Source: Streptomyces umbrinus
GTDB lineage: Bacteria > Actinomycetota > Actinomycetes > Streptomycetales > Streptomycetaceae
Direction of reading: 5' to 3'
NCBI RefSeq assembly: GCF_030817415.1
Contig: NZ_JAUSZI010000002.1
Coordinates: forward strand, 10,577,501-10,641,500
DNA: 64,000 nt
Shown: in pieces, positions 29,812 to 61,845 of the stretch
How the letters are laid out: every line of letters begins with the position of its first letter
Numbering within the stretch: the stretch's first letter is position 1
Position numbers and translations under genes: made by a program
Notes under the pieces: generated by a model
Database searches by the model: none
The model's input: only the letters and a program-made list of their open reading frames with translations
Told to the model about the DNA's origin: nothing

Positions 29812-29860
29812 ATCGGCAGGCCGCCGCCTCACTCGGGCATGGCCGCGCAAGGAGCGAAAC

Positions 29861-31478: not shown

Positions 31479-32216
31479 TCAGATCGACATCCCGCCGTCG
31501 ACAGGGAGCACAGTGCCTGTCACATAGCCGGCCTGATCGGATGCGAGATACGCCAAGGCCCAGGATATTTCGGCTGCGGGGGCGAAGTATCCCGCTGGAA
31601 TGATGTCCTGGAGTCGTTCGCGCTGCTCATCGGGCAGGGCTGTGATCATTCGGGTTTCGGCCACGGGAGATATCGCATTGACGGTGACACCGAATCGCAC
31701 CAGTTCTTTCGCCACCGTCTTGGTGAGACCGATGATCCCCGACTTCGCGGCGGAGTAGGCCGTCTGACCGACGTTGCCGTGCATGCCGGCGTACGACGTC
31801 ACGTTCACCACACGGCCCCAGCCTTGCCGACGGAAGTGCGGAACGCTGGCACGAATGAAGCGGAAGGGACCTCCGAGGTGCACTGCGAGCACCGAGTCCC
31901 AGTCCTCGTCGGCAAGGTTCCAGATCATCCTGTCCCGGAGAATTCCTGCATTGTTGATCAGGATGTCGATCCGGCCGGTGTCCGAGATGACATCCGACAC
32001 GACGGTGTCGACCTCCTGTGTGCGAGTGACGTCGACTTCCGCGAAACGGGCACCGTCCAGGCTGTCGGCCGCTTCCTTGAGCCGGGCCCCGTCACGGCCG
32101 ACGAGCCATACGACGGCTCCCGCGGAGTGGAAGAACCGGGCCGCGGCCAGGCCGATGCCCCGGCCGGCGCCGGTGATGAGCACCGTCCGTCCGGTGAAGT
32201 CATAGGTGACGTGCAA
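31479..32216 (-). CDS. SDR oxidoreductase, 3-oxoacyl-ACP reductase (FabG-like)
   Basis: A 245-residue short-chain dehydrogenase. The NADP-binding motif is TVLITGAGRGIGLAAARFF, then LINNAGILRD (NNAG), the catalytic Ser-Tyr-Lys in VVNVTSYAGMHGNVGQTAYS and AAKSGIIGL, and the C-terminal GTVLPVDGGMSI. It should reduce a 3-oxoacyl thioester. The start is uncertain: TTG at 32216 has AAGGAG at ideal spacing, while GTG at 32210 (VTYDFTGR) fits the family start better; the track frame also overlaps the FabH gene. It is the last gene of a leftward operon with FabH-like and MDR genes, which could make a starter or priming acyl unit. Confidence 0.92.
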   Translation of the reverse strand: MHVTYDFTGRTVLITGAGRGIGLAAARFFHSAGAVVWLVGRDGARLKEAADSLDGARFAEVDVTRTQEVDTVVSDVISDTGRIDILINNAGILRDRMIWNLADEDWDSVLAVHLGGPFRFIRASVPHFRRQGWGRVVNVTSYAGMHGNVGQTAYSAAKSGIIGLTKTVAKELVRFGVTVNAISPVAETRMITALPDEQRERLQDIIPAGYFAPAAEISWALAYLASDQAGYVTGTVLPVDGGMSI

Positions 32217-32241
32217 GAGTTGTCTCCTTGCCGGGTGAGGA

Positions 32242-33294
32242 TCACGTCTCTTGGATGACGAAGTCTTCTGGCCCACACCAACGGACCAGGGCGGCCCCGT
32301 AGTTGAGTCCGCCGCCGAACGCAGTCAGCAACGCGAGTTGGCCTGCAAGCAGCCGGCCCGAGTCGACCGCCTCCCGCAGGACGAGAGGAACGGACGCGCC
32401 GGAGGTGTTGCCGATGCGCTCGATGTTCGTCAGTGTCTTGTCGCGCGGTTGGCCGAGCGCGTCAACGATTCCGTGCACCAGATTTCGGTTGGCCTGGTGC
32501 AGGGCGAAGAAGTCGATGTCGTCGAGCTCCAGACCGGCCTTCAGCACGAACTCTCGGATGAAGTCAGGTATGACGCCGAGGACGAACTCCTTGATGTCGT
32601 TTCCCCGCATGGTCGTGAAGTTGTCCCCGAACGCGGACTTCTTCGGCAGCCCGTTCCGGTCCGTGCGTAACTCGCGGGCTGCGTACACCGACGAGTAGTG
32701 ATCGGGGTCACTGCGAAGGAGGACGTCCCTCATCCCCTTTCCTGGGAGCGTCGGCTCCAGGATGTAGCAGGCCGCCGCGTCGCCGAAGATGACGCCGACC
32801 GTGCGATCCTCCGGGTCGAAGAGCTTCGATCCCACATCCGTGAGCACTACGGCAACACGCGGATAACCACCGGAGGAGACGTACTTCGCACCGATGTCGA
32901 GTGCGAATACTGCTCCAGGACACCCTCCGCTGTTCACGTCGAAACCTGGAGTGGGCGGCATACCGGCCTTGTGCATGATCGCGGCCGCGGTATTGGGCAG
33001 CATATGGTCGGGCGTGTAGGTGCTGCAGATGACCAGGTCCACGTCGCGGACGTTGATGTTCATCTGGTGGCAGGCGTCGGCAAGGGCTTTCGCTCCCAGA
33101 TCGGACGACCACTCGTCGGGCGCGGAGAAGCGGCGTTCCTCGATACCTATTCGTTCGCGAATCCATTCATCGTTCGTCGGAAGTGTCCGCGCCAGCTCGG
33201 CGTTGGTGACGACACGGGCCGGGAGGTAGCGGCCGATCGCTCTGATTCCCACCCCTGGCTGGCTCTCCGTTTCGTACAGTGAATGCCTCGCCAT
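32242..33294 (-). CDS. 3-oxoacyl-ACP synthase III (FabH-like)
   Basis: A 350-residue KASIII homologue. The catalytic triad is complete: Cys125 in VNSGGCPGAVFALD, His266 in FFALHQANRNLVH and Asn296 in RIGNTSGASVP. The C-terminal GGGLNYGAALVRW is typical. The loop around the active cysteine (SGGCPGA instead of NAACAGF) differs from housekeeping FabH, suggesting another acyl substrate. Housekeeping FabH starts fatty acids from acetyl-CoA; cluster versions make short starter units or act as acyltransferases. The ATG at 33294 follows the MDR gene by 42 bp on the same strand, so the three genes form an operon. Confidence 0.93.
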   Translation of the reverse strand: MARHSLYETESQPGVGIRAIGRYLPARVVTNAELARTLPTNDEWIRERIGIEERRFSAPDEWSSDLGAKALADACHQMNINVRDVDLVICSTYTPDHMLPNTAAAIMHKAGMPPTPGFDVNSGGCPGAVFALDIGAKYVSSGGYPRVAVVLTDVGSKLFDPEDRTVGVIFGDAAACYILEPTLPGKGMRDVLLRSDPDHYSSVYAARELRTDRNGLPKKSAFGDNFTTMRGNDIKEFVLGVIPDFIREFVLKAGLELDDIDFFALHQANRNLVHGIVDALGQPRDKTLTNIERIGNTSGASVPLVLREAVDSGRLLAGQLALLTAFGGGLNYGAALVRWCGPEDFVIQET

Positions 33295-33336
33295 GGAGTA
33301 ATTTCCTTTCCCGAGCGGGTATCGTGCGACAAGTCA

Positions 33337-34500
33337 TCAGGTCTGGTGCACGCGATAGAGCGGAAAGTAGGATTCGACCCTTCCTTTTGAGTAGTCCCCA
33401 GCGAGCTGCTCGACGTCGTCGAAGTCGTAGATTCCGGCCGGATCGACCGAGGGAATCCAGTCCGTGCGCTCCTGCTGGTCGCGTATGGTCGCGCAGTCGT
33501 CGTATCGCCAGACATGTGTGTTCACGTGGAGGTGCCGATTGATGCACTCGCTTGCCCGCAGATTGTAGGTTCGCATCCCCTGCTTCCAGCCGACGGTGGT
33601 GATGACTCCTTGCCTAGCCATGGCCTTGACCGTTGCCTTGTACAGCGGTGCCCCCATGTTGTCGACGAATATGGCCACGCCGGCCCCGTCGCTGAGTGCG
33701 TTGATCGTTCTCAGAAATTCCTTCTCGGACGTGCGGTAACTCGCCACTGAGGCGGGATCGCTCGGCGGGTTGTCAGGATCGTTGGTCAGATGAGGGAAGA
33801 GCCGCCGGTCCACTCCGGTGATGCCGAGCCTGTCGAGTTCGGCCAGCCGGGCATTGCTCCCGGCGGTCATGGCGACCCGGAACCCGGCGCGCTTGGCCAG
33901 TTGCAGCTCGGCGAGCACGACGCCGCCGCCCCACCCGAAAACCAGGTGGTCGCCGGGGTCCTGGCCTTCCATCTGTGTCGACCAGCAGCGGTGGGCGATG
34001 CGCCAGTTGTCCCAAGCGGTGAAGTAGCGCGCGTATGCCGCCCACTGCGGGAGCGAGTACTTGCTGTCCTCGGGAATGGGCAGGAGGAGTTCGGAGTCTA
34101 TCTTTGTGCGCTTCGCCAGGAGCCCAACGGTCCGGGGCGCCTCATAGGCGTAGACAAGTTCCGCATAGCCATAGCGGTCGCGCTTAGAGAAGGGCATCAC
34201 CATGCAGATGTCTCCTTCTTGGAGGGAAGCAGACGTGCCCGGGTTCAGGATCCTCACAATGCCGAGGTTTCCCAGAACCACCTTTTCCTCGTGCCGGAGA
34301 CGGCAGACATCGATCGGCCTTCGCGACCTGGCATGCTCAATGTTCGCTTCCCATGATCCGTACAGGGGCTCGACCAATGCTTCGTGGTCTCTCGGTTCGA
34401 CGAAGGAAAACGACTCTCGGTGTAGAGTCCCGGTCGGTCGAGTCTCCGCGTCGGCGGTCTCCGGACCGGCATGGAGCACCCAAGCATCAGTGTGGATCAC
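33337..34500 (-). CDS. MDR-superfamily zinc-type dehydrogenase/reductase
   Basis: A 387-residue medium-chain dehydrogenase/reductase, of the broad quinone oxidoreductase/crotonyl-CoA reductase type. The Rossmann site is HLVFGWGGGVVLAELQLAKR (GxGGGV), and the partner segment GAGVAIFVDNMGAP follows. The N-terminal half has GLLAKRTKIDSELLLPIPED. I cannot see a full catalytic zinc site, so it may be a zinc-free enoyl or ketone reductase. The start is the GTG at 34500, with GAGGAGG 6 bp upstream; the frame is open for 22 more codons into the promoter. It is the first gene of the leftward operon with FabH-like and SDR genes, and divergent from the main rightward operon. Confidence 0.88.
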   Translation of the reverse strand: MIHTDAWVLHAGPETADAETRPTGTLHRESFSFVEPRDHEALVEPLYGSWEANIEHARSRRPIDVCRLRHEEKVVLGNLGIVRILNPGTSASLQEGDICMVMPFSKRDRYGYAELVYAYEAPRTVGLLAKRTKIDSELLLPIPEDSKYSLPQWAAYARYFTAWDNWRIAHRCWSTQMEGQDPGDHLVFGWGGGVVLAELQLAKRAGFRVAMTAGSNARLAELDRLGITGVDRRLFPHLTNDPDNPPSDPASVASYRTSEKEFLRTINALSDGAGVAIFVDNMGAPLYKATVKAMARQGVITTVGWKQGMRTYNLRASECINRHLHVNTHVWRYDDCATIRDQQERTDWIPSVDPAGIYDFDDVEQLAGDYSKGRVESYFPLYRVHQT

Positions 34501-34571
34501 GTTCGCCTCCTCGTCTCCTGAAATGACCGTAGCGATGAATGCGTGACAGAAGCAACAGGTCCTCAAATTTT

Positions 34572-34603
34572 CTACGACGTTGTAGTTCTACGAATTCGTA
34601 GAA
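34572..34603. promoter_or_regulatory. Tandem palindromic operator in the divergent cluster promoter
   Basis: Two adjacent palindromes lie between the divergent MDR and methyltransferase genes: CTACGACGTTGTAG (34572-34585, one mismatch) and the perfect 18-bp TTCTACGAATTCGTAGAA (34586-34603). Both have the arm CTACGA and their centres are 16 bp apart. This region must hold the promoters of both arms of the polyketide part of the cluster, so a cluster-specific regulator, perhaps the TetR at 59839, is the obvious candidate. Confidence 0.8.
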
Positions 34604-34654
34604 ATTCATCTGCCTATTGCGGCGGTTCAGACCTCGGGACTAGAGTCGCCAGGC

Positions 34655-35284
34655 ATGGGAAACGGTCGCGTATCTCAAGTGCTCGCCCGACAATACGATC
34701 GCATTTCTGAAAGACTTGAAAGAGGCATCGGTGGGCCCCAACTGCGCACCACTCTCGTGGGTGATTTGACCGGTCGGGTGGTGGAAATAGGTGCGGGCAC
34801 CGGACGTAATCTTCCGTACTACAGCAAGGCTGACCACGTCGTTGCCGTCGAGCCGTCCTCCGGGATGCGCTCGCAATTGATGGGGAAAATAGACAGCGCG
34901 GCACCAGCGGTCGAAGTCATCGATGCGACGGGCGAACGTCTCCCCTTTGAGGACGAGGAATTCGACGCCGCCGTCTCCTTTCTGCTTCTGTGCGTGGTGG
35001 ACGATCTCGACGGCGTGCTGACCGAAATTCACCGAGTCCTGAAGCCTGGAGGAAGGTTGTCCTTCTTCGAGCATGTCCGTGACGTCGGCAGACGCGGCCG
35101 GACCCAGGACCTGACCAGCCCGCTGCTCCGGCGCGTGCAGTTCGGCTGCCGTCCCAACCGGCGGTCGATCGAGCGCATGCAGGCCCTGGGATTCGAGGTG
35201 CAGGTTTCCGATCCGCCGGTGCCGATCAAGCCCAGGCCCCCCTTCAGCGGGCCCTACTTCACCGGAACGGCGATCCGCCGGTGA
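34655..35284 (+). CDS. Class I SAM-dependent methyltransferase
   Basis: A 209-residue methyltransferase. SAM motif I is RVVEIGAGTGRNLPYYS (about residues 41-57), the acidic residue after strand 2 is in VVAVEPSSGM, and motif II/III appear in EFDAAVSFLLLCVVDD and VLKPGGRLSFFEHV. The family methylates small-molecule O, N or C atoms; the acceptor is unknown. It is the first gene of a rightward operon of eight genes; its stop overlaps the GTG of the next gene, so translation is coupled. The ATG at 34655 is preceded by a weak ribosome binding site (CCAGGC). Confidence 0.9.
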   Translation: MGNGRVSQVLARQYDRISERLERGIGGPQLRTTLVGDLTGRVVEIGAGTGRNLPYYSKADHVVAVEPSSGMRSQLMGKIDSAAPAVEVIDATGERLPFEDEEFDAAVSFLLLCVVDDLDGVLTEIHRVLKPGGRLSFFEHVRDVGRRGRTQDLTSPLLRRVQFGCRPNRRSIERMQALGFEVQVSDPPVPIKPRPPFSGPYFTGTAIRR

Positions 35285-36141
35285 CGGGGGCGTCAGTCTT
35301 CTCGAAAGCGCTGGCCGAGGTGCAGTTCCGAGTGCCGTACAGCAGTGCGTCCTCCTATCACGAGTACTACGGGAAAGGGGCGCCGCCGTGGCGTCTGGGC
35401 CGCGGCTGCGGCTGGCAGACCTTCGAGGTCGCGCGACTCGTGGAGGAGCGGTGCGGCGCTCGCCCGACGCATCTGTATGCGGGAGGCCACTCGCCGGCGA
35501 TGTACTTCGGAGAGGGGGAGATCACAGTCCTCGACCCCTATCTGCCCCATCTCGAACCGCTCCGACTGCGCCGCGCGGACACGGTGTCCGGAACGGTGCG
35601 GGCAGGTACGGACGCCTATCCGCTCAGGGTCCGCGCCGACGGGACGCCCGCGCCGTCACGGTTGAGCGCGACGTGGTGGGTGGGCGACGGGGTCTTCCTC
35701 CTCGAGTACTCCCGATACAGCCCCCGACGATCCGCCATGGTGACGCATCGTGCATTCACCTTTCATCTGGGCACCGAACTTCCGGCGTTCCCAGTGCCGT
35801 CGGGGTTCGCACGACGACTTCTGCTGGAGCCCATGCAGAACAACCTCTCCATCCGCGCCCTGCACCGTCAGGAACTCAGGATGGGCGAGCTCGTCCTGCC
35901 GTTCGGCGGACGACCGCGGGACCAACTGGTGGACCCCGCCTTCCTGATCGCCAAGGACAACCAGGGCCGGGTGAGCAGAGCCGGGACACCCGCGTTCGAC
36001 CGCGTACTGGAGCTGATCGCCGACGCGGTGAAGGGCACACCTGCCGAGGTCACGGAGTTCGTCATGGATGCCGCGGCGATCTACCACCGGGTCGTACCGC
36101 TCGACCAGAAGTGGCCCGAATACTCAGCGGAGGACGAGTGA
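35281..36141 (+). CDS. Unknown biosynthetic protein with NAT/transglutaminase-like Cys-His-Asp triad
   Basis: A 286-residue protein that I cannot place in a named family. The N-terminal third has Cys43 in LGRGCGWQTFEVARL, His70 in LYAGGHSPAMYFGEGE and Asp85 in ITVLDPYLPHLEPL. The order and the 15-residue His-to-Asp distance match arylamine N-acetyltransferases, which include the RifF-type amide synthases that release and cyclise polyketide chains. A link to NATs is inference from this spacing only. The GTG at 35281 overlaps the preceding stop codon, and its own stop overlaps the next GTG, so it belongs firmly to the operon. As the cluster lacks a terminal thioesterase domain, it could act in chain transfer or release. 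Confidence 0.85.
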   Translation: MTGASVFSKALAEVQFRVPYSSASSYHEYYGKGAPPWRLGRGCGWQTFEVARLVEERCGARPTHLYAGGHSPAMYFGEGEITVLDPYLPHLEPLRLRRADTVSGTVRAGTDAYPLRVRADGTPAPSRLSATWWVGDGVFLLEYSRYSPRRSAMVTHRAFTFHLGTELPAFPVPSGFARRLLLEPMQNNLSIRALHRQELRMGELVLPFGGRPRDQLVDPAFLIAKDNQGRVSRAGTPAFDRVLELIADAVKGTPAEVTEFVMDAAAIYHRVVPLDQKWPEYSAEDE

Positions 36142-36650
36142 CAACGAGCTTTTTCCTGGCCGGCGTCATGCAGGGAAGCCGCCGCGACATCGATGCCGCC
36201 GACCAGTCCTACCGTCTCCTGCTGCGCAGGATGATCGAAAGACTCCGCCCCTCCGCCGTGGTGCACGACCCCCATGAACTGGTGTTGCGGCGCTACGGCG
36301 ACCGCGTAACCGAGATCCGAGGGGCACTCGCGGCCGCCACCGACGCCCCTGTCATCGTCCGCGAGCACCTCGATCCCGAGGTGCTCGAACTCCTCGACGT
36401 GTTCCACGAGATGGCCCGGCTCGCCTCGGCCAGCGACATCTGCGTCGTCTGGCTGCCCGGACACGAACCGAGCATGGGCACCGCCGCCGAAATGTACGGC
36501 GCCTTCCAGGCGGGACGGACCGTCGTCACGATCACGGAGATGCGCTACAACGTGGCCGTTCTTTCGTGCTCGACGGTGATCCTTCCCGACCTGGCAGCGT
36601 TCTCCAACTGGCTTGCGAAGGACGGTGACTCGTTGTGCACGACATCGTGA
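36138..36650 (+). CDS. Nucleoside 2-deoxyribosyltransferase-like protein
   Basis: A 170-residue Rossmann-like protein. The N-terminal strand FFLAGVMQGSRRDIDAADQS, the strand DICVVWLPGHEPSMGTAAEM and the following YGAFQAGRTVVTIT resemble the nucleoside 2-deoxyribosyltransferase superfamily. In that family the Glu of the GTxxE motif (here GTAAEM) is the nucleophile or general base. Relatives in nucleoside-antibiotic clusters (MilB, BlsM) are CMP N-glycosidases. Whether this one is a catalyst is unknown. It starts with GTG at 36138 overlapping the preceding stop and overlaps the FAAL gene by 16 bp. Together with the PurF paralogue at 49279 it hints at ribosyl chemistry. Confidence 0.82.
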   Translation: MTTSFFLAGVMQGSRRDIDAADQSYRLLLRRMIERLRPSAVVHDPHELVLRRYGDRVTEIRGALAAATDAPVIVREHLDPEVLELLDVFHEMARLASASDICVVWLPGHEPSMGTAAEMYGAFQAGRTVVTITEMRYNVAVLSCSTVILPDLAAFSNWLAKDGDSLCTTS

Positions 36651-38404
36651 CGTCGGCTTTGCGGGAGGAACTCTCCGCACTGAACGGCGGATTCGCCCCA
36701 GCCGTGCGGGAACTCGCCAGGAAACGCCCCGATGCGGTCGCCATGACGTTCCTCGACTACGAAACCGACTGGGCGGGCCGGACGACGCGATTGACCCGCG
36801 GTGATCTCGACAGCAGAGCGACCGCGATGGCCGGACTGCTGCAGAAGCTGGCGAGTCCAGGTGACCGGGTGGCCATTCTCTGTCCCAACGGACCCGAGTA
36901 CGTGGCGGCCTTCATGGGCTGCCTGTACGCCGGGCTGTTGCCCGTAACCCTGCTGCCGCCCGAGCTCCAGCGCCGCACCGAGCGGCTGGCCCCCACCCTC
37001 GCGGACTGCGCACCCGCGGTGGTCGTCACGATCAGCCGGCATCAGGACTCGGTCGCGGAGGCACTCGCCACGGTCGGCGGCTCAACATCTCGTGCGCATA
37101 TCGTCCTCGCCGACCAAGTGGACGATGCGCACGCGGCCTCGTGGATCCCTGTGGACACGGATCTCTCCGGCACCGCCTACCTCCAGTACACCTCCGGCTC
37201 GACGAGGAATCCGGGCGGCGTCGAGGTCACGCATCAGAACATCGCGGTGTCGGTCGCCCAGCACGTCGACCGCCAACGGGTCGACGAGCACTCGACGATC
37301 GTGAGCTGGCTCCCGTTCTTCCACGACATGGGGCTCGTTTTCGCGTTGATCCTTCCGCTGGGTGTCGGGATTCCCGCGGTGCAGATGACCCCGTACGCCT
37401 TCATCCAGCAACCGCTGCGCTGGCTAGGGCTCTTCGGCGAGTACCGCGGGACACACACGATGATTCCCAACTTCGGCCTGGACGTGTGCGTGGACGCGAT
37501 CCCCGAGGAGGACAGGCCGGGCCTCGACCTCTCGTCCATACGGTATTTCGGCAACGCCTCCGAACCTGTCCGGGCGCAATCGCTGGAGCGCTTCACCGAG
37601 GCGTACGCCCCGCACGGTTTCCGGCATACCGCCCACTCGCCCTGCTGGGGTCTGGCCGAGGCCACTCTGATCGTGACCGGGATCAGCGCAGAGGCCGAGC
37701 CGGTGGTGAGCAGCTTCGACCGTACGGCACTGGCCGCAGGCCGCGTCGAACCGTGTGCAGACACCGACCCGGCGGCACGCCCTCTCGTGGGATGTGGCGA
37801 GGCCTTCCAGGGACAGGACGTCCGCGTCGTTCATCCCGCCACGGGGCAGGAGGTACCCGTCGGCGAGGTGGGCGAACTGCTCGTCCGCGGCGGCAATGTG
37901 TGCCAGGGGTACTGGCAGCGCGCGGACAGCGACGAGACGTTCCGCAACGTCCTCGACGGCGAGGCCCACTGGCTGCGCACCGGCGACCTCGGCTTCTTCC
38001 ACGGCGCCGAACTGTTCATCGCCGGCCGGACGAAGGACATCGTGATCGTCGACGGACGCAACCACCACGCGATCGACATCGAGGTGACGGTCGAGCAGGT
38101 CAGCCCTGCGGTGCGGCGGGGGCATGTCGCCGCCTTCCCGGTCGAGACGGGGGAGCGTGAACTGGCCGTCGTGGTCGCCGAGTTGCGTCCCGATGCCACC
38201 GTCGACCCGGAGGACCTGCGCACCGCGATCCGCGCCGCTGTGGCGGACGCGCACCACATCGATCTGCACGACGTCGCTCTCGTCACCCGCGGCACCATTC
38301 CCAAGACCTCCAGCGGCAAGCTCCGCCGCCGTGTCTGCCGGGACATGTACACCGGCGGGGAGCTCGCAGCGCAGATCGTGGCTGCCGATCGGACGCCTTC
38401 ATGA
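36635..38404 (+). CDS. Fatty-acyl-AMP ligase (FAAL)
   Basis: A 589-residue adenylating enzyme that activates a carboxylic acid as acyl-AMP and transfers it to a carrier protein. The P-loop AYLQYTSGSTRNPGGVEVTH, SWLPFFHDMGLV (typical FAAL HDMGL), the A5 region SPCWGLAEATLIVTG and the A8 region WLRTGDLGFFHGAELFIAGR with KDIVIVDGRN are all FAAL-like. The A10 lysine is in IPKTSSGKLRRRV. FAALs carry an insertion that blocks CoA use. It starts with GTG at 36635 inside the previous gene, and its stop (ATGA) overlaps the start of the ACP-KS gene, so the acyl-AMP is very probably loaded on that ACP. The acyl substrate may come from fatty acid metabolism or from the FabH/SDR/MDR operon. Confidence 0.94.
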   Translation: MHDIVTSALREELSALNGGFAPAVRELARKRPDAVAMTFLDYETDWAGRTTRLTRGDLDSRATAMAGLLQKLASPGDRVAILCPNGPEYVAAFMGCLYAGLLPVTLLPPELQRRTERLAPTLADCAPAVVVTISRHQDSVAEALATVGGSTSRAHIVLADQVDDAHAASWIPVDTDLSGTAYLQYTSGSTRNPGGVEVTHQNIAVSVAQHVDRQRVDEHSTIVSWLPFFHDMGLVFALILPLGVGIPAVQMTPYAFIQQPLRWLGLFGEYRGTHTMIPNFGLDVCVDAIPEEDRPGLDLSSIRYFGNASEPVRAQSLERFTEAYAPHGFRHTAHSPCWGLAEATLIVTGISAEAEPVVSSFDRTALAAGRVEPCADTDPAARPLVGCGEAFQGQDVRVVHPATGQEVPVGEVGELLVRGGNVCQGYWQRADSDETFRNVLDGEAHWLRTGDLGFFHGAELFIAGRTKDIVIVDGRNHHAIDIEVTVEQVSPAVRRGHVAAFPVETGERELAVVVAELRPDATVDPEDLRTAIRAAVADAHHIDLHDVALVTRGTIPKTSSGKLRRRVCRDMYTGGELAAQIVAADRTPS

Positions 38405-39993: not shown

Positions 39994-40006
39994 CTGCGAG
40001 GTGTTC

Positions 40007-40854
40007 ATGAAGTTCGGACTGCTTTCCGTCATCACCGACTTCTCCATCGACCCGAGAGAACTCGGACGCCAGGCGGAGGAGCGCGGCTTCGACTCCCTCT
40101 TCGTACCGGAGCACACGCACATGCCCGTACACATCGAAAGCCGGCGGCCGGACGGCGGACCGGTCGTCCCCGAAGCGATGCAGGGCCTCGACCCCTTCAC
40201 GGCGCTGTCCGCGATCGCCGCCTCGACCTCCCGACTGCTCATCGGCACCGGGATCTGCGAGGTCCCGACCCGCGATCCGATCATCCTGGCCAAGCAGGTT
40301 GCCAGCCTCGACGTGCTCTCCCAGGGCCGGTTCCTGTTCGGCGTCGGGACCGGCTGGGTACGCGAAGAACTGCTCAACCACGGGGTGGACCCCGCCACCC
40401 GGACCGCGCGCCTCATGGAATACCTGGAGGTCATGCGGACCATCTGGGCCGACCACGAGGCCTCGTTCGCCGGAGAGTTCGTCAAGTTCGATCCCATCGT
40501 CTCGCTGCCGAAGCCGGTGCAACGACCGCATCCGCCGATCCTGATGGGGCTGACCGGAACCAGGGCACTGGATCGCGTGACAGCGGCCCGGGCGGAATGG
40601 ATGCCCATGTACGGCCTGGAAGGCGAGGGCCTGGCCGAGCGGATCGCCCAGCTCAACGAGCAGGCCGCCGAGTTGGGGCTCGGACAGGTTCCGGTCACGG
40701 TCGTGGAGGTTCCGCCGGAGGAAGAGGCGGTCGCCCGGTGCATGGAGGCGGGCGTCAGCCGGTGCGTCTTCACGCTGCCTCCCGGCGAGAGGGAGGACGT
40801 GCTGCCACTCCTCGACTGGTACACGGAACTGAGCGAACAGGCCGAGTACCTGTG

Positions 40855-40855
<1 letters not shown>
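40007..40855 (+). CDS. Luciferase-like (LLM) F420/flavin-dependent oxidoreductase
   Basis: A 282-residue TIM-barrel oxidoreductase. Typical motifs are MKFGLLSVITDFSIDPRELG, then GFDSLFVPEHTHMP, LIGTGICEVPTRDPIILAKQ, and LSQGRFLFGVGTGWVREEL, which match the F420-dependent LLM class. Such enzymes hydroxylate, reduce or perform Baeyer-Villiger reactions, and some act on carrier-bound polyketides. The ATG at 40007 has GAGGTG upstream; the long frame before it is within the KS gene. The stop overlaps the start of the next PKS gene (TGATG). Its position inside a split PKS module suggests it acts on the growing chain. Confidence 0.92.
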
Positions 40856-44861
<4,006 letters not shown>

Positions 44862-44865
<4 letters not shown>

Positions 44866-49241: not shown

Positions 49242-49278
49242 CGGTTCCCTCCGGTTGGCCGGTGCGGCACAAGTCGTG

Positions 49279-50738: not shown

Positions 50739-50800
50739 GTGTCCTCCATGAAGTGGTCCGGTTCTCGGGCATGGGCTGAATACGGTGAGCGTGGTCCGGA

Positions 50801-54600: not shown

Positions 54601-56301
54601 CAACAACTGTCCTGTCTCGGGCGCGCCGGTGTCGTTGACGCGCTCACGGGTGGCGCGTTGCTGAGCGGGCAGGAGCCCGGTGACGGGGGAGGACCAGGCA
54701 TTGTCCGTGGTGGCGAGGGCTTCGACGAGTTGCTCGTATGCGCTGAACATGGCGTCCAGCAGGCCGTCAGGGAACAGCTCCTCGGCCGCGTCCCAGGCGA
54801 GGAGCAACCCCTCGGCATCCTCGTACAGCTGATGGTCGAGCCACACCTGCGGGGTCTGGGAAATCATCCAGCCGAACTCACCCAGTGTGTTCCGGAAGCG
54901 TTCGTCGACGAACTCGGAACCGAGATTGCTGGCGAACACGACGGGGGCGGATGCCCGTTCCCCGGGCCGGGCACGCGCCAGGTCGCGCAACACCTCGACC
55001 GCCGAGTACTCGGCATGTGCCACATCGCTCTGGAACTGCGCCTGCAGCCGTCGGGCGTGAGCGATGAAAGGCCCTCCGTCCGAGGTGTCGGCGGTCACCA
55101 GGACGAGATTGGTGAAGTCGGCGACCAGGCTGCCCACGTCGGGGTGCACGGGCTGCCGGTCGAAGAGGGGGAGATTCAGTACGAAGCGCTGCTGGGCGCT
55201 CCAGGCACCGAGTACCTCGGCGTAGGCGGCGGCCAGGGCCATGGCAGGCGTGACTCCGTGTGCTCGGGCCCGCTCGGTGAAACTCTGCCAGGCATCGGGT
55301 GCCAGTCGCGCACGACGGCGGGTGAACCTCGGCCGCTCCACCGGCTCGGGATCCACGGCCAGCGGCAGCGCGGGGCCGCCCGGAAGCTCGGGGAGCCGGT
55401 CCTGCCAGTAGGCGCGGGCCTTCTCCCTGGGCGAACTCCGCTGCCCGGCGAGGTCGGTGAGGTAGCGGGGGAAGGAGTACGCGGGCTCGGCCGGCGGATT
55501 GCTGGATGCCTCCGGCTGCTCGGCGTAGTACAGGGCCATCTCGGCGAGCAGGTGCTGGATACTGAGGACGTCGGCGACGAGCAGATCGATCCCGAAGTGG
55601 ATGCGTGTGGCACCGTCTGGACACAGGGAGAGCTGGACGTCGAAGACATGACCGGCGGCCACGTCGAACCGCCGGTGCGAGAGCTGTTCGCGGACGCGGC
55701 TGAGGGCTTCGTCCGCCTCTGCCCGGGGCAACGTCCGCACGTCGTGCACGGTCAGCCCCGGCCACGGTGAGGTGGTCGCGACGCGTTGGGTCCCGTCCTC
55801 CAGGAAGCGGGCCCTGAGCATTGCGTGTCGAGCGATGAGGGCCCGCACGGCGGACTCGAGGCGGTCGGCCCGTACGTCCCGGCCGTCGAACTCCATATAC
55901 GCGTGGCAGCCGTTGCCGCCCAGCGACTGGCCGTCCGTCCGCCCGATCCAGTACGCCTGCTGCACCGGTGTCAGGGGGAAGGCGGCCGCCTCGTCCGCCA
56001 CGGTCTCGGCCGGTCCGGGCGGGCCGTCGGTACATCGGTCCACTTCCGCGGTCCCGGTACCGGAGAGTCGTTGCGTCAGCAGCCGTGTCCAGGCGCCGAT
56101 GGTCGGCTCCTGGGCCAGTTCCGCGTAGTCGACCTCGGCTCCGGACGAGCGCCAGCGCCCGACGAGGGCCATGGTGCGGATCGAGTCGAGCCCGTGCGAG
56201 ATCAGGTTGTCCGTCTCCGCCACGGCGTCCGGCGGCAGGCCGAGCACTTCGGACACGGCCTCGCGGATCTGGCGTTCCACAGCGGGTGCGGCGTGTGTCA
56301 T
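51598..56301 (-). CDS. NRPS ArCP-Cy-A(with embedded MT-like domain)-PCP, PchE-like, cysteine-specific
   Basis: A 1567-residue synthetase with the domain order of pyochelin PchE. ArCP: Ser40 in SHGLDSIRTM. Cy (about 107-540): FPLTPVQQAYWIGRTDG and DLLVADVLS (DxxxxDxxS, Asp239/Asp244), so it can cyclise cysteine. A: VIYTSGSTGRPKG; pocket residues from FDLSVYD, VWNSVPA, LALMSGD, SLGGATEAAIW give D-L-Y-N-L-S-L-I-W-K, the cysteine code. Between A8 (YRTGDMGRYLPDGSIEFLGR) and A10 (LPLSSNGKVDRKSVL) is a methyltransferase-like insert (RILEAGAGVGATTDQM; FTDVSHFFLNEARSRF), as in PchE/HMWP2, where it epimerises the thiazoline. PCP: Ser in YDLGGDSLLVAQF. No TE. Expected product: hydroxyphenyl-thiazoline carboxyl thioester. 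ATG at 56301, divergent from the salicylate ligase. Confidence 0.96.
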   Translation of the reverse strand: MTHAAPAVERQIREAVSEVLGLPPDAVAETDNLISHGLDSIRTMALVGRWRSSGAEVDYAELAQEPTIGAWTRLLTQRLSGTGTAEVDRCTDGPPGPAETVADEAAAFPLTPVQQAYWIGRTDGQSLGGNGCHAYMEFDGRDVRADRLESAVRALIARHAMLRARFLEDGTQRVATTSPWPGLTVHDVRTLPRAEADEALSRVREQLSHRRFDVAAGHVFDVQLSLCPDGATRIHFGIDLLVADVLSIQHLLAEMALYYAEQPEASSNPPAEPAYSFPRYLTDLAGQRSSPREKARAYWQDRLPELPGGPALPLAVDPEPVERPRFTRRRARLAPDAWQSFTERARAHGVTPAMALAAAYAEVLGAWSAQQRFVLNLPLFDRQPVHPDVGSLVADFTNLVLVTADTSDGGPFIAHARRLQAQFQSDVAHAEYSAVEVLRDLARARPGERASAPVVFASNLGSEFVDERFRNTLGEFGWMISQTPQVWLDHQLYEDAEGLLLAWDAAEELFPDGLLDAMFSAYEQLVEALATTDNAWSSPVTGLLPAQQRATRERVNDTGAPETGQLLHDAVVQAAQCHGRHIALRWGADGQMSYDELLRRALAVAHELRARELRAAEPVAVILDKGWEQIVAVLGILLAGGAYLPVDTNQPPARRNVMLADAGVREVLVHSRSAAFEELPTPLHSVEVDTLTPAAPGTELPEPTASGDDLAYVIYTSGSTGRPKGVMISHRSAVNTVTDINHRFKVTAEDRGLALAALGFDLSVYDVFGLLGVGGCLVLPDPERRGDPSHWAELIDRHCVTVWNSVPAQLQMLQHYAESEPTPDLASLRLALMSGDWIPVTLPDAVRRRCPGLELISLGGATEAAIWSIYHPIGEVPATWRSIPYGTPLANQTFHVLDAALRPRPELVPGELWIGGVGVAMGYLGDEQRTAERFVTHPATGERLYRTGDMGRYLPDGSIEFLGREDTQVKVRGHRIELAEIEAALLAHPDVAATAVVVDGTNSANRRIAAAVTGSRHKEPTTAAEEARVLAGAAHSAGARAAGRTALTHVEAAQHRLNQTAFTAMAAALRSLGAFPPGAEPPTAEQVLRRAGVPLRFHRVVRRWLAVLESEGLVHRDPDTGRYRDLMPADDALLAEELYRLETEGCEPMWTAPVLQLLTASMRRLPELLRGELDQVRLLFPDGESEAARALYADNAIMRYLNRATAGLAAHLAAGADPGRPLRILEAGAGVGATTDQMISVLPGAAGAPGMEPDYLFTDVSHFFLNEARSRFAAHPWLHYGLFDFNADYRGQGLRPQSFDMIVIANALHNARDIDAVLGRLRELLAPGGWLVFTELTVDRPDLMTWMEFLIQLDGTAPDAEGDFEDRRRGRDQTFFGVDEWRTLLAEAGAQAVVVLPEDGAELALFGQHLIAATFKRDRAGIDLEDLREHLSEQLPEYMVPAHIETVEALPLSSNGKVDRKSVLSWVTEGRKEDAVRSAPPLDELERLLAGMWAELLSVRSVARDDNFYDLGGDSLLVAQFIGRLRRELSAAAALSFDELLRTMVRRPTLAAVAERLRQMDGKVADR

Positions 56302-56660
56302 CGCTGTCCTCTCTCCGGGGCCTCGCCGGCTGGGTTACCGGCGATTTTCTAATGGCGATCGCGGGAAATTCATAGAATTCATGCCGTTGTCCTTGGAGTC
56401 GCTCATGCCGACTCAACGTAAAACACCATGTGCGTCTCCGGGAAGGGAGGTACTCGAAGGAGTAGTACCCGGCGGGGGTATGTCGTAATTGACCGGTTAA
56501 TCCTTTCAAATCCGCCCAAAATGGAGCCGAACTTGACTTTTACTTTACCTATTAGTTGCCATTCATTTATTGACTTGGCTCTTTGGAGGAGACAGATTCT
56601 TTACGGTTCAGTAAGAGTTCGTGGATCCCTGAAAATCTCGATTTGAGGGGTGTGAATCCT
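56302..56660. promoter_or_regulatory. AT-rich divergent promoter region of the salicyl-thiazoline genes
   Basis: The 359-bp gap between the NRPS (leftward) and ligase (rightward) genes is far richer in A+T than its surroundings, particularly 56490-56640. It contains GGTACTCGAAGGAGTAGTACC (21 bp, 56449-56469 approx.), in which TACTC/GAGTA form perfect arms; TACT-AGTA resembles BlaI-type half-sites. A TTGACTTTTACTTTACCTATT stretch at about 56533 could include promoter hexamers. I found no convincing IdeR/DmdR iron box. Confidence 0.55.
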
Positions 56661-58292
56661 GTGGACGTGGTTTCGTGGCCCGCCGAATTCGTCGAACGGT
56701 ATCGCCGTGCCGGATACTGGCGGGGACGACCGCTGGGCGACCTGTTGCGCGATGGAGCGCGCGAGCACCCCGATGCCACTGCGCTGCTCTGCGGTGACCT
56801 GTTGTGGAGCTACGCCGAGCTCGACGAGCGGAGCGACCGGCTCGCCGCCGGACTGGCCGAACTGGGCATCCGCGCCGGGGACCGGGTGGTCGTCCAACTT
56901 CCCAATGTCCCCGAGATGTTGCCGCTGCTCTTCGCCCTGTTTCGCCTGGGCGCTCTCCCCGTGCTGGGGCTGCCCGCCTACCGCAGCAGCGAAGCCGTTC
57001 ACCTGTGCTTGAGCACCGATGCCGTCGCCTACGTCATTCCGGACACGGATCCGGACACCGGCTTCGACTACCGCAGGCTCGCCGAGGAAGTGCGCGCGAA
57101 GGCACCCTCACTGCGCCACGTGCTGGTCGCCGGGGAACCGGGGGCGCACACTCCCTTGCACGAGATCGACGCCGCCCCACGGCCATGGCCCGCGCCCCGG
57201 GCGAGCGACCCGGCATTGCTGCTGGTCTCCGGCGGCACCACGGGGCTGCCCAAGTTGATCCCGCGCACCCACGACGACTACTTCTACAACCTCCGCGCCA
57301 GCGCTGAGGTCTGTGGGCTGGACGAGAACAGCGTCTACCTCGCGGTGCTGCCCATGGGGCACAACTTTCCGCTCGCCTGCCCAGGCGTCCTCGGGGTGCT
57401 CCACGTCGGCGGCGCAGTCGCGCTGTGCCCGTCACCCAGCCCCGAGGTCGCGTTCGCCGCCATCGAACGGTTCAAGGCGACGGTCACCGCGGTCGTGCCA
57501 CCCCTGGCCGCTCTGTGGTCCCAGGCCGTCCAATGGAATACCGCCGACATCAGCAGCCTCGACCTCCTCCAGGTGGGCGGTGCCCGGCTCTCCCCGGACA
57601 CGGCCCGGCTCATCGGCCCGGCCCTCGGCTGCGAACTCCAGCAAGTGTTCGGCATGGCGGAGGGCCTGCTCAGCTATACCCGCCGGGGCGACGACGGGGA
57701 GACCGTCGCGACAACTCAAGGCCTCCCGCTCTGCCCCGACGACGAGATACGGATCGTGGACGAGGCGGACCGAGACGTCCCGCCCGGTGCCGTCGGCAGC
57801 CTGATCACCCGAGGTCCGTACACGCTGCGCGGCTACTACCGCGCGCCCACACACAACCTCCGGGCCTTCACCCCGGACGGCTTCTACCGCACCGGCGATC
57901 TGGTGAGGCTCACCCCGGAAGGTCGACTCGTCGTCGAGGGTCGGGAGAAGGACCTCGTGAACCGAGGCGGAGACAAGGTCTCCGCGGACGAGTTGCAGAA
58001 CCATCTGCGGGCTCACCCCGCGGTCCTCGACGCCGCCGTGGTGCCTGTTCCCGACCCGTATCTCGGCGAGCGAACCTGTGCCTGCCTGCTCCTGCGCGAA
58101 GGGTACGACGACGTGCCCGACATGGCCGCCTTCCTGCACGACCGAGGGCTGGCGGCGTACAAGATCCCCGACGTGGTGAGGATCTGCCACTCCTTCCCTC
58201 TGACCAGCGTGGGCAAGGTCGACAAACGCGAACTTGCCCGGTCCGTCGCGCCCGACCCCGGTGCGACGGCAGCGGACCTCCGCGCCCGGTGA
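56661..58292 (+). CDS. Salicylate / 2,3-dihydroxybenzoate-AMP ligase
   Basis: A 543-residue stand-alone aryl acid-adenylating enzyme of the DhbE/YbtE/MbtA/PchD group. Typical residues are LLLVSGGTTGLPKLIPRTHD and DYFYNLRAS, then LPMGHNFPLACPGVLGVLH (the HNFPLA motif of aryl ligases), VFGMAEGLLSYTR and GFYRTGDLVRLTPEGRLVVE. The C-terminal lysine is in FPLTSVGKVDKREL. It activates salicylate and loads it on the ArCP of the NRPS. The GTG at 56661 is chosen because GAGGGG lies 10 bp upstream; the frame also has an upstream TTG at 56583 with a weak context. It is divergent from the NRPS and precedes the salicylate synthase gene in the same direction. Confidence 0.94.
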   Translation: MDVVSWPAEFVERYRRAGYWRGRPLGDLLRDGAREHPDATALLCGDLLWSYAELDERSDRLAAGLAELGIRAGDRVVVQLPNVPEMLPLLFALFRLGALPVLGLPAYRSSEAVHLCLSTDAVAYVIPDTDPDTGFDYRRLAEEVRAKAPSLRHVLVAGEPGAHTPLHEIDAAPRPWPAPRASDPALLLVSGGTTGLPKLIPRTHDDYFYNLRASAEVCGLDENSVYLAVLPMGHNFPLACPGVLGVLHVGGAVALCPSPSPEVAFAAIERFKATVTAVVPPLAALWSQAVQWNTADISSLDLLQVGGARLSPDTARLIGPALGCELQQVFGMAEGLLSYTRRGDDGETVATTQGLPLCPDDEIRIVDEADRDVPPGAVGSLITRGPYTLRGYYRAPTHNLRAFTPDGFYRTGDLVRLTPEGRLVVEGREKDLVNRGGDKVSADELQNHLRAHPAVLDAAVVPVPDPYLGERTCACLLLREGYDDVPDMAAFLHDRGLAAYKIPDVVRICHSFPLTSVGKVDKRELARSVAPDPGATAADLRAR

Positions 58293-58427
58293 CCCCAGGG
58301 CGGATCCCCGCTCCCGGTGCCTCTGGGATGCATCTCCGCTCCGGCGATCCCGGGGCGGGGCCCGGAGGGATCCCGCCCATCGGCGTGTTCCGGTCCGACC
58401 AGATGACCTTCAACCTTGAGGACACCC

Positions 58428-59810
58428 ATGGCCGAACGGCAGCGCTACTTCGAATTCACCGTGCCGGTTCAGGGCGACCCGATGCTTCACGCCACCCGCC
58501 TCGCCCGCCGCGGACCGTACGAGCAGTACGTGGTGTACGAACGACAGGGAGCCTGGTACTACGCGGGGGGCGCTGAAGCCGAACTCACCGTCTTCCGCGA
58601 CGTCATCGACTTCAGGGCAGGGACGGAACGCTCCTCCGTGCCGTGCGCGCACGAACCGCTACGGCAGGTGCACCAGTTGCTCGGCAGCCTGCCGCTCGAC
58701 GGCTGGCGTGCATTCGGCTGGGCGACGTTCGAGCTCTCATACGCGCTCGCCGACCGGGCAGACGAAGAGGTCCCGGTGGGCGGGGACGCCTTACTGCATC
58801 TCGTCGTACCCGCGGTGGAGGTGCGCCTCCGCTCGGGCGAAGCACTGATCCGATGTACCGACCCCGCGATGGCGGACAAGGTCCGCAGCCTCCTGGCCGG
58901 CGCGGACTCCGACCCGGTGCCCGCGCCTGCGTTCTCCGCGGACATCGTCGACGGCGGACGCGAGCCGTACCAGACGGCGGTGTCCGCCGCGGTTTCGGCC
59001 ATCCGCAACAACGAACTGCACAAGGTCATCCTCTCCCGGACCGTCGAGGTGGAGCAGGAAATAGATCTGGTCGGCACGTATGTGACGGGCCGGCGGGCCA
59101 ACAACCCGGCCCGCTCCTTCCTGTTGCGTCTCGGCGGGATCGAAGCCGCCGGGTTCAGTCCGGAAACCGTCGTGGAGGTCGCCGCCGACGGAACCGTCTC
59201 CACCCAACCGCTTGCCGGCACCCGCGCCCTGACCGGGGACGCGCCCCAGGACGCACAACTACGGATCGAACTGCTCGCAGACGCCAAGGAGGTGTACGAG
59301 CACGCCATATCGGTTCAGGTGGCCTGGAACGAGATGACCGAGGCCTGCGCCCCCGGGTCGGTACGGGTCGAGGAGCTGATGGACGTGAAGCAGCGCGGCA
59401 GTGTCCAGCACATCGCCTCGCGTGTCACCGGTCGCCTCGCCGAGCGCACCGAGGGACCCTGGCCGGCCCTGGCCGCGGTCTTCCCGGCCGTCACCGCGTC
59501 CGGCGTGCCCAAATCGGCCGCGTACGACCTGATCCGCCGTCATGAGCCCGAACCCCGAGGTCTGTACAGCGGCGCGGTCCTGATGGTCAGCAGCGAGGGT
59601 GATCTGGACGCGGCCCTGGTGCTGCGCACCGTGTACCGGAGCCGCGGGCGTACGTGGCTTCGGGCAGGAGCCGGCATCGTCGGCGAATCCCGCCCCGAGC
59701 GTGAATTCGAGGAAACCTGCGAGAAGCTGCGCAGCGTCTCCCGGCATCTCGTCCCGGCGCACGATTCGGCGACCGCGGAGTGTCAGGCCAAGGTCAGCAG
59801 TTCTGGATGA
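58428..59810 (+). CDS. Salicylate synthase (MbtI/Irp9/YbtS-type)
   Basis: A 460-residue chorismate-utilising enzyme that makes salicylate from chorismate in one protein through isochorismate. The chorismate-binding signature runs HKVILSRTVEVEQEIDL, AAGFSPETVVEVAADGTVST then QPLAGTRALTG, KEVYEHAISVQVAWNEM, VKQRGSVQHIASRVTG and GLYSGAVLMVSSEGDLDAAL. These and the length fit MbtI (about 450 residues) better than PchA (which needs a separate lyase PchB); no pchB-like gene is present. The ATG at 58428 has GAGG upstream; the TTG 12 bases earlier is unlikely. It lies 135 bp after the ligase gene and upstream of a TetR gene. Confidence 0.95.
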   Translation: MAERQRYFEFTVPVQGDPMLHATRLARRGPYEQYVVYERQGAWYYAGGAEAELTVFRDVIDFRAGTERSSVPCAHEPLRQVHQLLGSLPLDGWRAFGWATFELSYALADRADEEVPVGGDALLHLVVPAVEVRLRSGEALIRCTDPAMADKVRSLLAGADSDPVPAPAFSADIVDGGREPYQTAVSAAVSAIRNNELHKVILSRTVEVEQEIDLVGTYVTGRRANNPARSFLLRLGGIEAAGFSPETVVEVAADGTVSTQPLAGTRALTGDAPQDAQLRIELLADAKEVYEHAISVQVAWNEMTEACAPGSVRVEELMDVKQRGSVQHIASRVTGRLAERTEGPWPALAAVFPAVTASGVPKSAAYDLIRRHEPEPRGLYSGAVLMVSSEGDLDAALVLRTVYRSRGRTWLRAGAGIVGESRPEREFEETCEKLRSVSRHLVPAHDSATAECQAKVSSSG

Positions 59811-59838
59811 GAAAGGGCCGGTGACGTACCCTCCACCC

Positions 59839-60531
59839 ATGCCTACGACTCCCAGCCGCAACGCGCAGTACGGCGGCGCGGCGCGGACGGCTTCCGGCGC
59901 ATCCGGTGGGGCGCCACGGCGGCGCGCCGACGCCGAGCGCAGCATCGGCTCGATCGTCGCCGCCGGGCTTGAGTGCTTCCGCGAGGACCCGAACGCCAGC
60001 ATGACAGCCGTCGCTCGCGCCGCAGGGGTCAGCCGGGTGACGCTGTACGCCCATTTCCCCTCGCGCGAGGAGTTGTTCGAGGCAGTCCTGGCCTACTCGG
60101 TGAGCGAGGCGGACAAGGCACTCGAAGCGCAGGAGCTGGACAGCGGACCCGCCGACGAGAGCATGGTCCGGATGGTGCGTTCCTGCTGGCGGATCCTGGC
60201 GCAGCACTCCTTTCTGGTGACGGCGTCCGAAGGGCTCGTCGGAGAGCCGCGTCGGCGACGGCAGCACCGCAAGGTGCTGGACCGGGTCGACCGGCTCATC
60301 GCCCGGGGCCAGGAGGAAGGCGTCTTCCGCACCGACCTTCCCCGTCCCTGGCTGGTCACCGTCTTCTACAGTCTGCTGCACGCAGCGGCCGGGGAGACCG
60401 GGGCGCGGCGACTCAAGGCCGGGGAGGCCGCATCCACGCTGGAGCGCACCCTGCTCGCCGTGCTCAAAAAGCCCGAGGCCCAGGAGGAACCGGAGTCCGG
60501 GAGGGAACCGGGCGCGTCTCCGTCGCTATGA
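59839..60531 (+). CDS. TetR-family transcriptional regulator
   Basis: A 230-residue repressor. The N-terminal tail is Ser/Gly/Ala/Arg-rich; the HTH is SMTAVARAAGVSRVTLYAHF, followed by PSREELFEAVLAY. The ligand domain resembles the TetR_C_33-like group. It lies 28 bp after the salicylate synthase in the same direction, so it may be its operon partner and a cluster-specific regulator. ATG 59839 (MPTTPSRN) is used; a GTG at 59821 is an alternative. The palindromes at 34572-34603 are a plausible target. Confidence 0.9.
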   Translation: MPTTPSRNAQYGGAARTASGASGGAPRRRADAERSIGSIVAAGLECFREDPNASMTAVARAAGVSRVTLYAHFPSREELFEAVLAYSVSEADKALEAQELDSGPADESMVRMVRSCWRILAQHSFLVTASEGLVGEPRRRRQHRKVLDRVDRLIARGQEEGVFRTDLPRPWLVTVFYSLLHAAAGETGARRLKAGEAASTLERTLLAVLKKPEAQEEPESGREPGASPSL

Positions 60532-60559
60532 TCGCAGCGCGCGCTGGGGAGGACGGGCG

Positions 60560-60940
60560 ATGTGGAACCTGGGAAGTCTCGAGGCTGAGGTGATGGACCG
60601 GATCTGGTCCAACGAGGAACCGGTCACGGTCCGCGACGTGGCGGGTGAGATCAACTCTGCCAGGGCACAACCGCTCGCGTACACCACGGTCATGACCACG
60701 ATGTACAAGCTGTTCCGCAAGGGCTGGCTGGAGCGCAGCAAGTCCGGCAAGCAGTACTTCTACGCACCCGTCGAGGCTCGGGACGCATGCGTCGCCCGTC
60801 TCATGACGCAGGTGCTCGGAAAGAGCGCCGATCCGGAGGTCGCACTCCTCCACTTCGTCGAAGGACTCGGCTCGGAGGGATCGACAGCGCTGCGCTCCGC
60901 CCTCCACCGGCTCCCCGCCGAAGACGATGCCGACGCATGA
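60560..60940 (+). CDS. BlaI/MecI-type repressor (partner of M56 peptidase)
   Basis: A 126-residue winged-helix repressor. The HTH region is LGSLEAEVMDRIWSNEEPVT then VRDVAGEINSARAQPLAYTT, VMTTMYKLFRKGWLERSKSG and KQYFYAPVEARD, matching BlaI very well. Such a protein is cleaved or released after signalling by a membrane M56 peptidase, and the next gene encodes one; stop and start overlap (ATGA). The pair resembles beta-lactam-sensing or cell-wall-stress circuits. The ATG at 60560 has GGAGG at good spacing. It is the second BlaI in this cluster. Confidence 0.94.
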   Translation: MWNLGSLEAEVMDRIWSNEEPVTVRDVAGEINSARAQPLAYTTVMTTMYKLFRKGWLERSKSGKQYFYAPVEARDACVARLMTQVLGKSADPEVALLHFVEGLGSEGSTALRSALHRLPAEDDADA

Positions 60941-61845
60941 TCCGCCTCACGCTGCTGGCCGGCTATTTGGTGGTGTGCGCGACCTGGGTTCCGTGGCTGC
61001 TGTCCCGGGCCGCATGGGTCTCGCGTTTCCCTCGTGCGGCCATCGCGCTCTGGGCGGGCTTGGTGGTGGCGGTTTCGGCCGGAGCGGTGGCATTTGGAGT
61101 GATGACCGCGCGGCACGTGCGGTGGCATGCCGCCGACCTCGTCTGGGGCTGGACACGGCTCCTTGACGCCTTGGGGGGACACCTGGTGGTCATCCTGTGC
61201 GTGGCGGGTGCGTTGAGCGCCGCGGTGGTCGTCCTGCGAGGCGTCATCGTCGGCACGGGCTCGCTCTGGCGCCTGCGTAGGGGATGGCGCGATCACGTGG
61301 ACGCACTTGACCTGCTGGCCCGTCCGCTGGAGGACTTGCCCGCAGTGGTCCTGGAACACACCGCGCCGGCCGCCTACTGCGTACCGACCAAAGGAGGGCG
61401 CGTGGTGCTCACCTCCAGTGCACTGCGGCGGCTGCCGCCCGGCACGGTGTCCGCCGTCATAGCCCATGAGCAGGCGCACCTGCGTGGTCGGCATCACCTG
61501 ATGGCGGCTCTGGCGGCTTCGCTCGCCCGGGCGTTCCCCTACGTGCCGTTGTTCCACCTGGTCCGCCCTGCGATGGCCCGGCTCATCGAACTGGCCGCGG
61601 ACGACCATGCGTCCCGTCGGTTCCGCTCGGAGACGGTGGCCACGGCATTGTCCGTCCTGGTCGCGATGCCGCTCGGCGCGGGGGCGTTGCAGGCGGGCAC
61701 CGAAGGCGCCAGTGAACGTATCCGCCGATTGAGCAGGGCTCCCGCGAGTGGGGGACGACAGTCTCTGGCGGCCATGGGTGGCTTTCTGTTCACGGTTGCT
61801 TCGTCGGCTCTGATCGCCACTTGGGCGTGGGCGGGCGGGTGTTGA
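60937..61845 (+). CDS. M56-family membrane metallopeptidase (BlaR1-like, no sensor domain)
   Basis: A 302-residue membrane peptidase. Four to five hydrophobic segments are visible (LLAGYLVVCATWVPWLLSRA; AAIALWAGLVVAVSAGAVAF; LVVILCVAGALSAAVVVLRG; near the C-terminus GGFLFTVASSALIATWAWAG). The zinc protease motif is VIAHEQAHLRGRHH (HExxH), and the third ligand region is LIELAADDHASRRF. It is a BlaR1/MecR1 homologue lacking the extracellular penicillin-binding domain. It probably cleaves the upstream BlaI in response to a membrane signal. The ATG overlaps the BlaI stop. Confidence 0.93.
   Translation: MIRLTLLAGYLVVCATWVPWLLSRAAWVSRFPRAAIALWAGLVVAVSAGAVAFGVMTARHVRWHAADLVWGWTRLLDALGGHLVVILCVAGALSAAVVVLRGVIVGTGSLWRLRRGWRDHVDALDLLARPLEDLPAVVLEHTAPAAYCVPTKGGRVVLTSSALRRLPPGTVSAVIAHEQAHLRGRHHLMAALAASLARAFPYVPLFHLVRPAMARLIELAADDHASRRFRSETVATALSVLVAMPLGAGALQAGTEGASERIRRLSRAPASGGRQSLAAMGGFLFTVASSALIATWAWAGGC

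Follow-up and report, generated by a model that had tools for sequence, protein, structure and literature searches.

Do two biosynthetic lines that lie side by side in a genome feed one molecule? The question is raised by a locus of Streptomyces umbrinus (assembly GCF_030817415.1, 12.4 Mb), which we examined within a stretch of 64,000 nucleotides (contig NZ_JAUSZI010000002.1, positions 10,577,501 to 10,641,500, forward strand); we call this whole stretch the window and number positions from its first letter. An original prediction, made from the DNA letters, had placed in one locus a polyketide synthase (PKS) line primed by a fatty acyl-AMP ligase (FAAL) and a complete nonribosomal peptide synthetase (NRPS) line leading from salicylate and cysteine to a thiazoline. 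The genes of both lines are present at or near the positions given there, they are conserved together in other genomes, and the locus is very probably a single Streptomyces biosynthetic gene cluster. It offers a clean test of whether salicyl-thiazoline and FAAL-polyketide lines feed one molecule. Its most interesting part is a recurring set of genes that the prediction saw only in part: a protein with the arylamine N-acetyltransferase (NAT) fold, an NDT-like protein, in most cases a second PurF, and the FAAL. Our best explanation of the whole is one cluster with amide release by the NAT-fold enzyme, an amine made by PurF, and a further step by the NDT-like protein; we hold it tentatively, at somewhat less than even probability.

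Two lines inherited together

In Streptomyces pseudovenezuelae GGS1 (NZ_JARXVH010000035) the genes from a LuxR regulator to a second BlaI-type repressor (BlaI2) follow each other in the same order as in the window, with identities of 74-91%. This synteny places the cluster between about 25.9 and about 60.9 kb; its right edge is the end of collinearity after BlaI2, and at the left edge the contig of the relative stops within LuxR. Among six matching loci only one (L009) is a relative of the cluster, and the other five match single domains. The list of 72 PKS2 matches holds nine further ones with identities of 56-93%, the S. pseudovenezuelae protein included; the closest listed proteins come from S. 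phaeochromogenes/umbrinus (93% for PKS2 and 96% for the salicylate synthase). The genes of the two lines are given here, with identity to S. pseudovenezuelae as a percentage in parentheses.

31479-32276, minus strand: FabG-like SDR ketoreductase (90%)
32242-33294, minus strand: KASIII, FabH-like (83%)
33337-34566, minus strand: MDR reductase with distant likeness to crotonyl-CoA and acrylyl-CoA reductases (79%)
34655-35284, plus strand: SAM methyltransferase (MT), opening the plus-strand operon (81%)
35281-36141, plus strand: NAT-fold acyltransferase, candidate amide synthase, with C43, H70, and D85 invariant
36138-36650, plus strand: NDT-like protein with a GHEPSMGTAAE motif, possible N-glycosidase (a weak assignment)
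36635-38404, plus strand: FAAL
38401-39993, plus strand: ACP-KS protein with the active-site Cys and both His motifs
40007-40855, plus strand: F420-type LLM oxidoreductase, luciferase-like, TIGR03619 (91%)
40855-44865, plus strand: PKS1, AT-DH-KR-ACP without KS
44862-48896, plus strand: PKS2, PpsE-like, with KS, vestigial AT, ACP, and terminal C domain
48876-49241, minus strand: BlaI/MecI-type repressor (89%)
49279-50772, minus strand: second PurF, whose clade is distinct from that of the housekeeping PurF
50801-51601, minus strand: type II thioesterase, TEII (88%)
51598-56301, minus strand: PchE-like NRPS, ArCP-Cy-A-MT-PCP, without TE
56583-58292, plus strand: salicylate (2,3-dihydroxybenzoate-type) AMP ligase
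58416-59810, plus strand: salicylate synthase

The genes from MT to PKS2 (34655-48896) form a plus-strand operon in which neighbors overlap by 1-16 bases, the single exception being ACP-KS and LLM, which are 13 bases apart; PKS2 starts at 44862, and a longer open reading frame from 43149 begins within PKS1. Convergent to this operon run BlaI, PurF, TEII, and the NRPS (48876-56301, minus strand), followed by the ligase and salicylate synthase on the plus strand (56583-59810). The genes named by the original prediction held up, but it missed the NAT-fold protein at 35281-36141, the LLM gene that splits a module, the dead AT, and the resemblance to PpsE, and therefore also the occurrence of the NAT-NDT-(PurF)-FAAL set in other kinds of cluster. 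The NAT-fold gene and the SDR, KASIII, MDR, and MT genes at 31479-35284 are real genes.

Another Streptomyces genome (G420) holds a rearranged cluster in which genes of both halves are mixed. The order there is salicylate synthase and salicylate ligase (both on the minus strand), TEII, NAT, NDT, PurF, MT, FAAL, ACP-KS, AT-DH-KR-ACP, KS-AT-ACP, MFS, LuxR, and NRPS genes, which include an A-MT-PCP protein, Cy-A-PCP-TE, and ArCP-Cy; the G420 stretches that were read gave no KASIII or MDR match and a weak SDR match (28.7%). Since the two logics are conserved together, collinear in a second species and again linked in G420, they are not chance neighbors, and the mixing of both halves in G420 makes it unlikely that they arose separately.

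The locus could still make two co-regulated products, with the NRPS half yielding a small aryl-thiazoline (aerugine- or pulicatin-like) and the FAAL half an amidated polyketide of its own. This is a real possibility, toward which we do not lean. It agrees with the TE at the end of one G420 NRPS protein and with the G420 PKS2 homologue, which is without a C domain. It also agrees with the surroundings of the NAT gene in 9 of the 12 NAT-bearing Streptomyces genomes described below, where the DNA read (about 14-40 kb) holds no close match to salicylate synthase; one of the nine, G405, has a distant match to a chorismate enzyme (31%). Against it speak the interleaving of TEII, NAT, PurF, and FAAL in G420, the lack of a TE in the window NRPS, and contig sharing: at least 8 of 26 NAT proteins apparently lie on one contig with a listed salicylate synthase, a lower bound in which the same contig is assumed from equal size and not proved, and in which six contigs are shorter than 240 kb (one of them a 92-kb Actinomadura contig) and two are whole chromosomes (Krasilnikovia among these cases). 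The same applies to at least 3 of 8 PKS2 proteins, the comparison having set the 26 NATs and 8 of 72 PKS2 rows against 27 of 120 listed salicylate synthases, some of them chosen by matching. That the two lines feed one molecule is thus unproven, and G420, with a TE on its NRPS and no C domain on its PKS2, allows a late joining or two products.

A NAT-fold protein and the genes that recur with it

The 286-amino-acid protein encoded at 35281-36141 was unannotated and has no Pfam or NCBIfam match. In a VIA-align comparison, the one method to reveal it, the predicted model has the arylamine N-acetyltransferase/amide-synthase fold, and a Cys-His-Asp triad (C43, H70, and D85) is invariant in 19 of 19 NAT proteins, namely, 18 of the 26 listed and the window protein. 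The fold and these residues rule out a noncoding frame or a plain thioesterase. RifF-type NAT enzymes free the chains of ansamycin PKS clusters by amide formation, according to PMC11213898. Neither line in the window has a TE domain. The chances are about even that the NAT-fold enzyme would free a carrier-bound acyl chain as an amide.

The second PurF matches TIGR01134 at 390.6 bits (cut-off, 350), and its N-terminal Cys and PRPP loop, VVLVDDSLVRGTT, align with the Bacillus subtilis-type PurF 1gph. In a tree, the PurF proteins that accompany NAT form a clade of their own apart from housekeeping PurF, which rules out a recent duplication. The product of PurF is phosphoribosylamine. Because there is no TE, NATs release amides, and PurF makes phosphoribosylamine, we propose that the NAT-fold enzyme would acylate phosphoribosylamine supplied by the second PurF; this amine is possible, if on balance doubtful. 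The NDT-like protein would then cut or transfer at the N-glycosidic bond, leaving either a primary or an N-ribosyl amide, a step that we regard as rather unlikely. Gene content, conserved motifs, the NAT fold, and co-inheritance are observed; all of the reactions, any link between the lines, and the final compound are inferred.

The set recurs. Among 392 Streptomyces genomes searched, 12 have NAT, and all 12 have NAT, NDT-like protein, and FAAL together. Nine of them also hold a PurF of the separate clade, directly after NDT in seven, and each of the nine has a housekeeping PurF in addition; the clusters around this PurF vary widely in gene content. A class-wide search found NAT in 3 of 394 genomes, all Streptomyces, one being a partial match with a stop. 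That search under-samples, since the listed NAT proteins include members from Actinomadura, Actinokineospora, Nocardiopsis, and Krasilnikovia. A separate search of one Actinomadura genome (that of L013) gave no NAT, an empty answer that proves nothing. It is conceivable, but unlikely, that NAT, NDT, PurF, FAAL, and ACP constitute a portable amidation cassette that uses the first step of purine synthesis: phosphoribosylamine would be the nitrogen donor, NAT would couple it to an acyl group on a carrier, and the NDT-like enzyme would strip off or swap the sugar, to give a primary carboxamide or an N-glycosyl amide. On this reading several different Streptomyces clusters would employ the cassette, the window being one that is tied to a salicyl-thiazoline. 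The original prediction had called the type of the cluster unrecognized; a literature search, judged on titles and abstract openings, found no description of this gene set, and the accessible parts of PMC11837247 and PMC11213898 do not mention "PurF" and "phosphoribosyl," respectively. If amides were made from phosphoribosylamine, a common functional group would be reached by a new route, and the cassette would be a searchable marker for uncharacterized clusters.

A second cluster type (type B) is built on the same set, at L051 (304-13891) and in L046, L047, L052, and L056; its genes are FMO, NAT, NDT, PurF, FAAL, ACP, DUF6506, P450, KASIII, GT2, P450, acyl-CoA ligase, and epimerase. NDT-like matches also occur apart from any NAT, at G193:C1:968524-968904 (L101) and in G032 (L100 and L102, a match in two pieces).

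Several observations weigh against amide release from PurF-made amine in a single cluster. The NDT label, which the original prediction had introduced, is weakly supported: the similarity exists but lies below every threshold, with PF05014 under its cut-off in five of six proteins and without a match in the sixth, so that no tested protein reached it. The comparison with NDT in the PDB gave an E of 0.059, hhalign to one true NDT gave a probability of 1.2% (E, 0.042), and an AlphaFold model from two sequences was too poor for use (pLDDT, 35). Foldseek alone on the NAT model returned nothing significant (best E, 0.068). In the window, about 13 kb separate PurF from NAT, which is on the opposite strand, and 3 of the 12 gene sets are without a PurF of their own. 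Because the G420 NRPS has its own TE, NAT need not be the NRPS release enzyme. Finally, related species may share flanking genes for nonfunctional reasons.

A serious rival to the nitrogen-donor role, if one of low probability, is that the second PurF, perhaps with PurM, is a resistant target copy that protects the producer from a product or intermediate inhibiting the first purine step. The housekeeping PurF that each of the nine genomes retains would fit, as would the three sets without PurF and the additional PurM carried by four of the five type-B clusters, in whose genomes a PurM also adjoins the housekeeping PurF. However, the copy belongs to an old, separate clade and directly follows NDT in most genomes, which ties PurF to NAT and NDT rather than to one product, and the diversity of the surrounding clusters also speaks against resistance.

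The assembly lines and their flanks

In the PKS line, the FAAL would load a carboxylic acid onto ACP-KS; KASIII, SDR, and MDR (31479-34566, minus strand) look like a small set of fatty-acid type, which may supply its substrate. One module is split, with its KS on the ACP-KS protein, AT-DH-KR-ACP two genes on, and the F420-type LLM between; G420 has the same KS/AT split, with no LLM match in the stretches compared. Together, KS1 and the split-off AT-DH-KR-ACP would add one unsaturated C2 unit. In the AT of PKS2 the GHSxG motif is without its catalytic Ser in 10 of 10 orthologues, and the middle of the domain is missing; this Ser is kept in four of four PpsE-like proteins compared and in the G420 homologue. 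The KS2 Cys is present in all 15 aligned rows, and the HHxxxDG motif of the C domain has its first His replaced and its second kept in 10 of 10 orthologues. KS2-ACP2 would be loaded in trans or would merely pass on the chain, and the PpsE-like C domain would end the line.

In the NRPS line, the salicylate synthase matches TIGR03494 at 435.5 bits (cut-off, 325.15), and the aryl-AMP ligase scores 663 bits with a 2,3-dihydroxybenzoate ligase model, under that model's cut-off of 723.55. The best PDB match of the NRPS is PchE (7emy, 778 bits), alignment with which suggests that the A domain is specific for Cys; the DxxxxD motif of the Cy domain is identical between the window protein and that of S. 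pseudovenezuelae. The three proteins would yield a (probably C-methylated) 2-hydroxyphenyl-thiazoline thioester.

The original prediction had suggested a lipidated or polyene-linked aryl-thiazoline, possibly a metallophore. Salicyl-thiazoline is a known metal-binding unit, and two MFS exporters are nearby. Nevertheless, a lipidated aryl-thiazoline metallophore is unproven and, in our estimate, improbable, no support for it having been found: the regulators are of BlaI, TetR, and LuxR types, the Streptomyces iron-box consensus has no window match at up to three mismatches (the chance expectation is also 0, and weaker boxes would escape notice), and the scanned window proteins include no siderophore uptake protein, a search that did not extend to the rest of the genome. 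The exporters and regulators flank the lines as follows.

25888-26679, minus strand: LuxR regulator (81% over 115 amino acids, cut by the contig end)
26846-28339, minus strand: MFS exporter (83%; left flank conserved)
28556-29209, plus strand: TetR regulator (76%)
29267-29710, minus strand: SnoaL-like protein (90%)
29732-31429, plus strand: second MFS exporter (81%)
59869-60531, plus strand: TetR regulator, start codon not settled (89%)
60560-60940, plus strand: second BlaI-type repressor, BlaI2, the last collinear gene (83%)
60937-61845, plus strand: M48/M56 BlaR-type peptidase, not collinear in S. pseudovenezuelae

It is unusual for a cluster of this kind to have two BlaI-type repressors and an M48/M56 BlaR-type peptidase around its NRPS half, along with a beta-lactamase-family protein (encoded at 24734-25846).

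Comparison with known systems

Micacocidin and mycobactin combine FAAL, PKS, and an aryl-azoline NRPS within one pathway, and we know of no counterpart of NAT, NDT, or PurF in either. Micacocidin builds its own aryl unit by PKS, whereas the aryl unit of the window would come from a salicylate synthase; the window is without lysine modules. PMC11837247 names both compounds as FAAL products. With the NAT-type amide synthases RifF and GdmF, the 286-residue protein shares the fold and the Cys-His-Asp residues, but it lacks a Pfam match and does not lie in an ansamycin cluster. Pyochelin-type lines (PchE, salicylate synthase, and aryl-AMP ligase) have the salicylate supply and the ArCP-Cy-A order in common with the window, which differs in its single module: no PchF-like second Cys module with TE is among the scanned window genes, whereas G420 has one. 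The insert in the window NRPS matches methyltransferase families and lies outside both stretches aligned with PchE.

The mycobacterial phthiocerol dimycocerosate (PDIM) line comprises FadD26, PpsA-E, and TesA. The window shares with it a FAAL, an ACP-KS entry, a KS-AT-ACP-C end protein, an F420-type LLM, and a TEII, and departs from it in having one split module, a dead AT, and a link to a salicylate-thiazoline line. A FAAL with a fused ACP-KS, typical of PDIM lines, is found at the gene and domain level, where the loading is predicted, and PKS2 has the PpsE-type domain order but not the active AT. Among the matches listed, the nearest relatives of PKS2 beyond its orthologues are mostly mycobacterial, many of them annotated as PpsE (30-32% identity). 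The locus shows, outside mycobacteria, a PpsE-like PKS in which a dead AT has become fixed.

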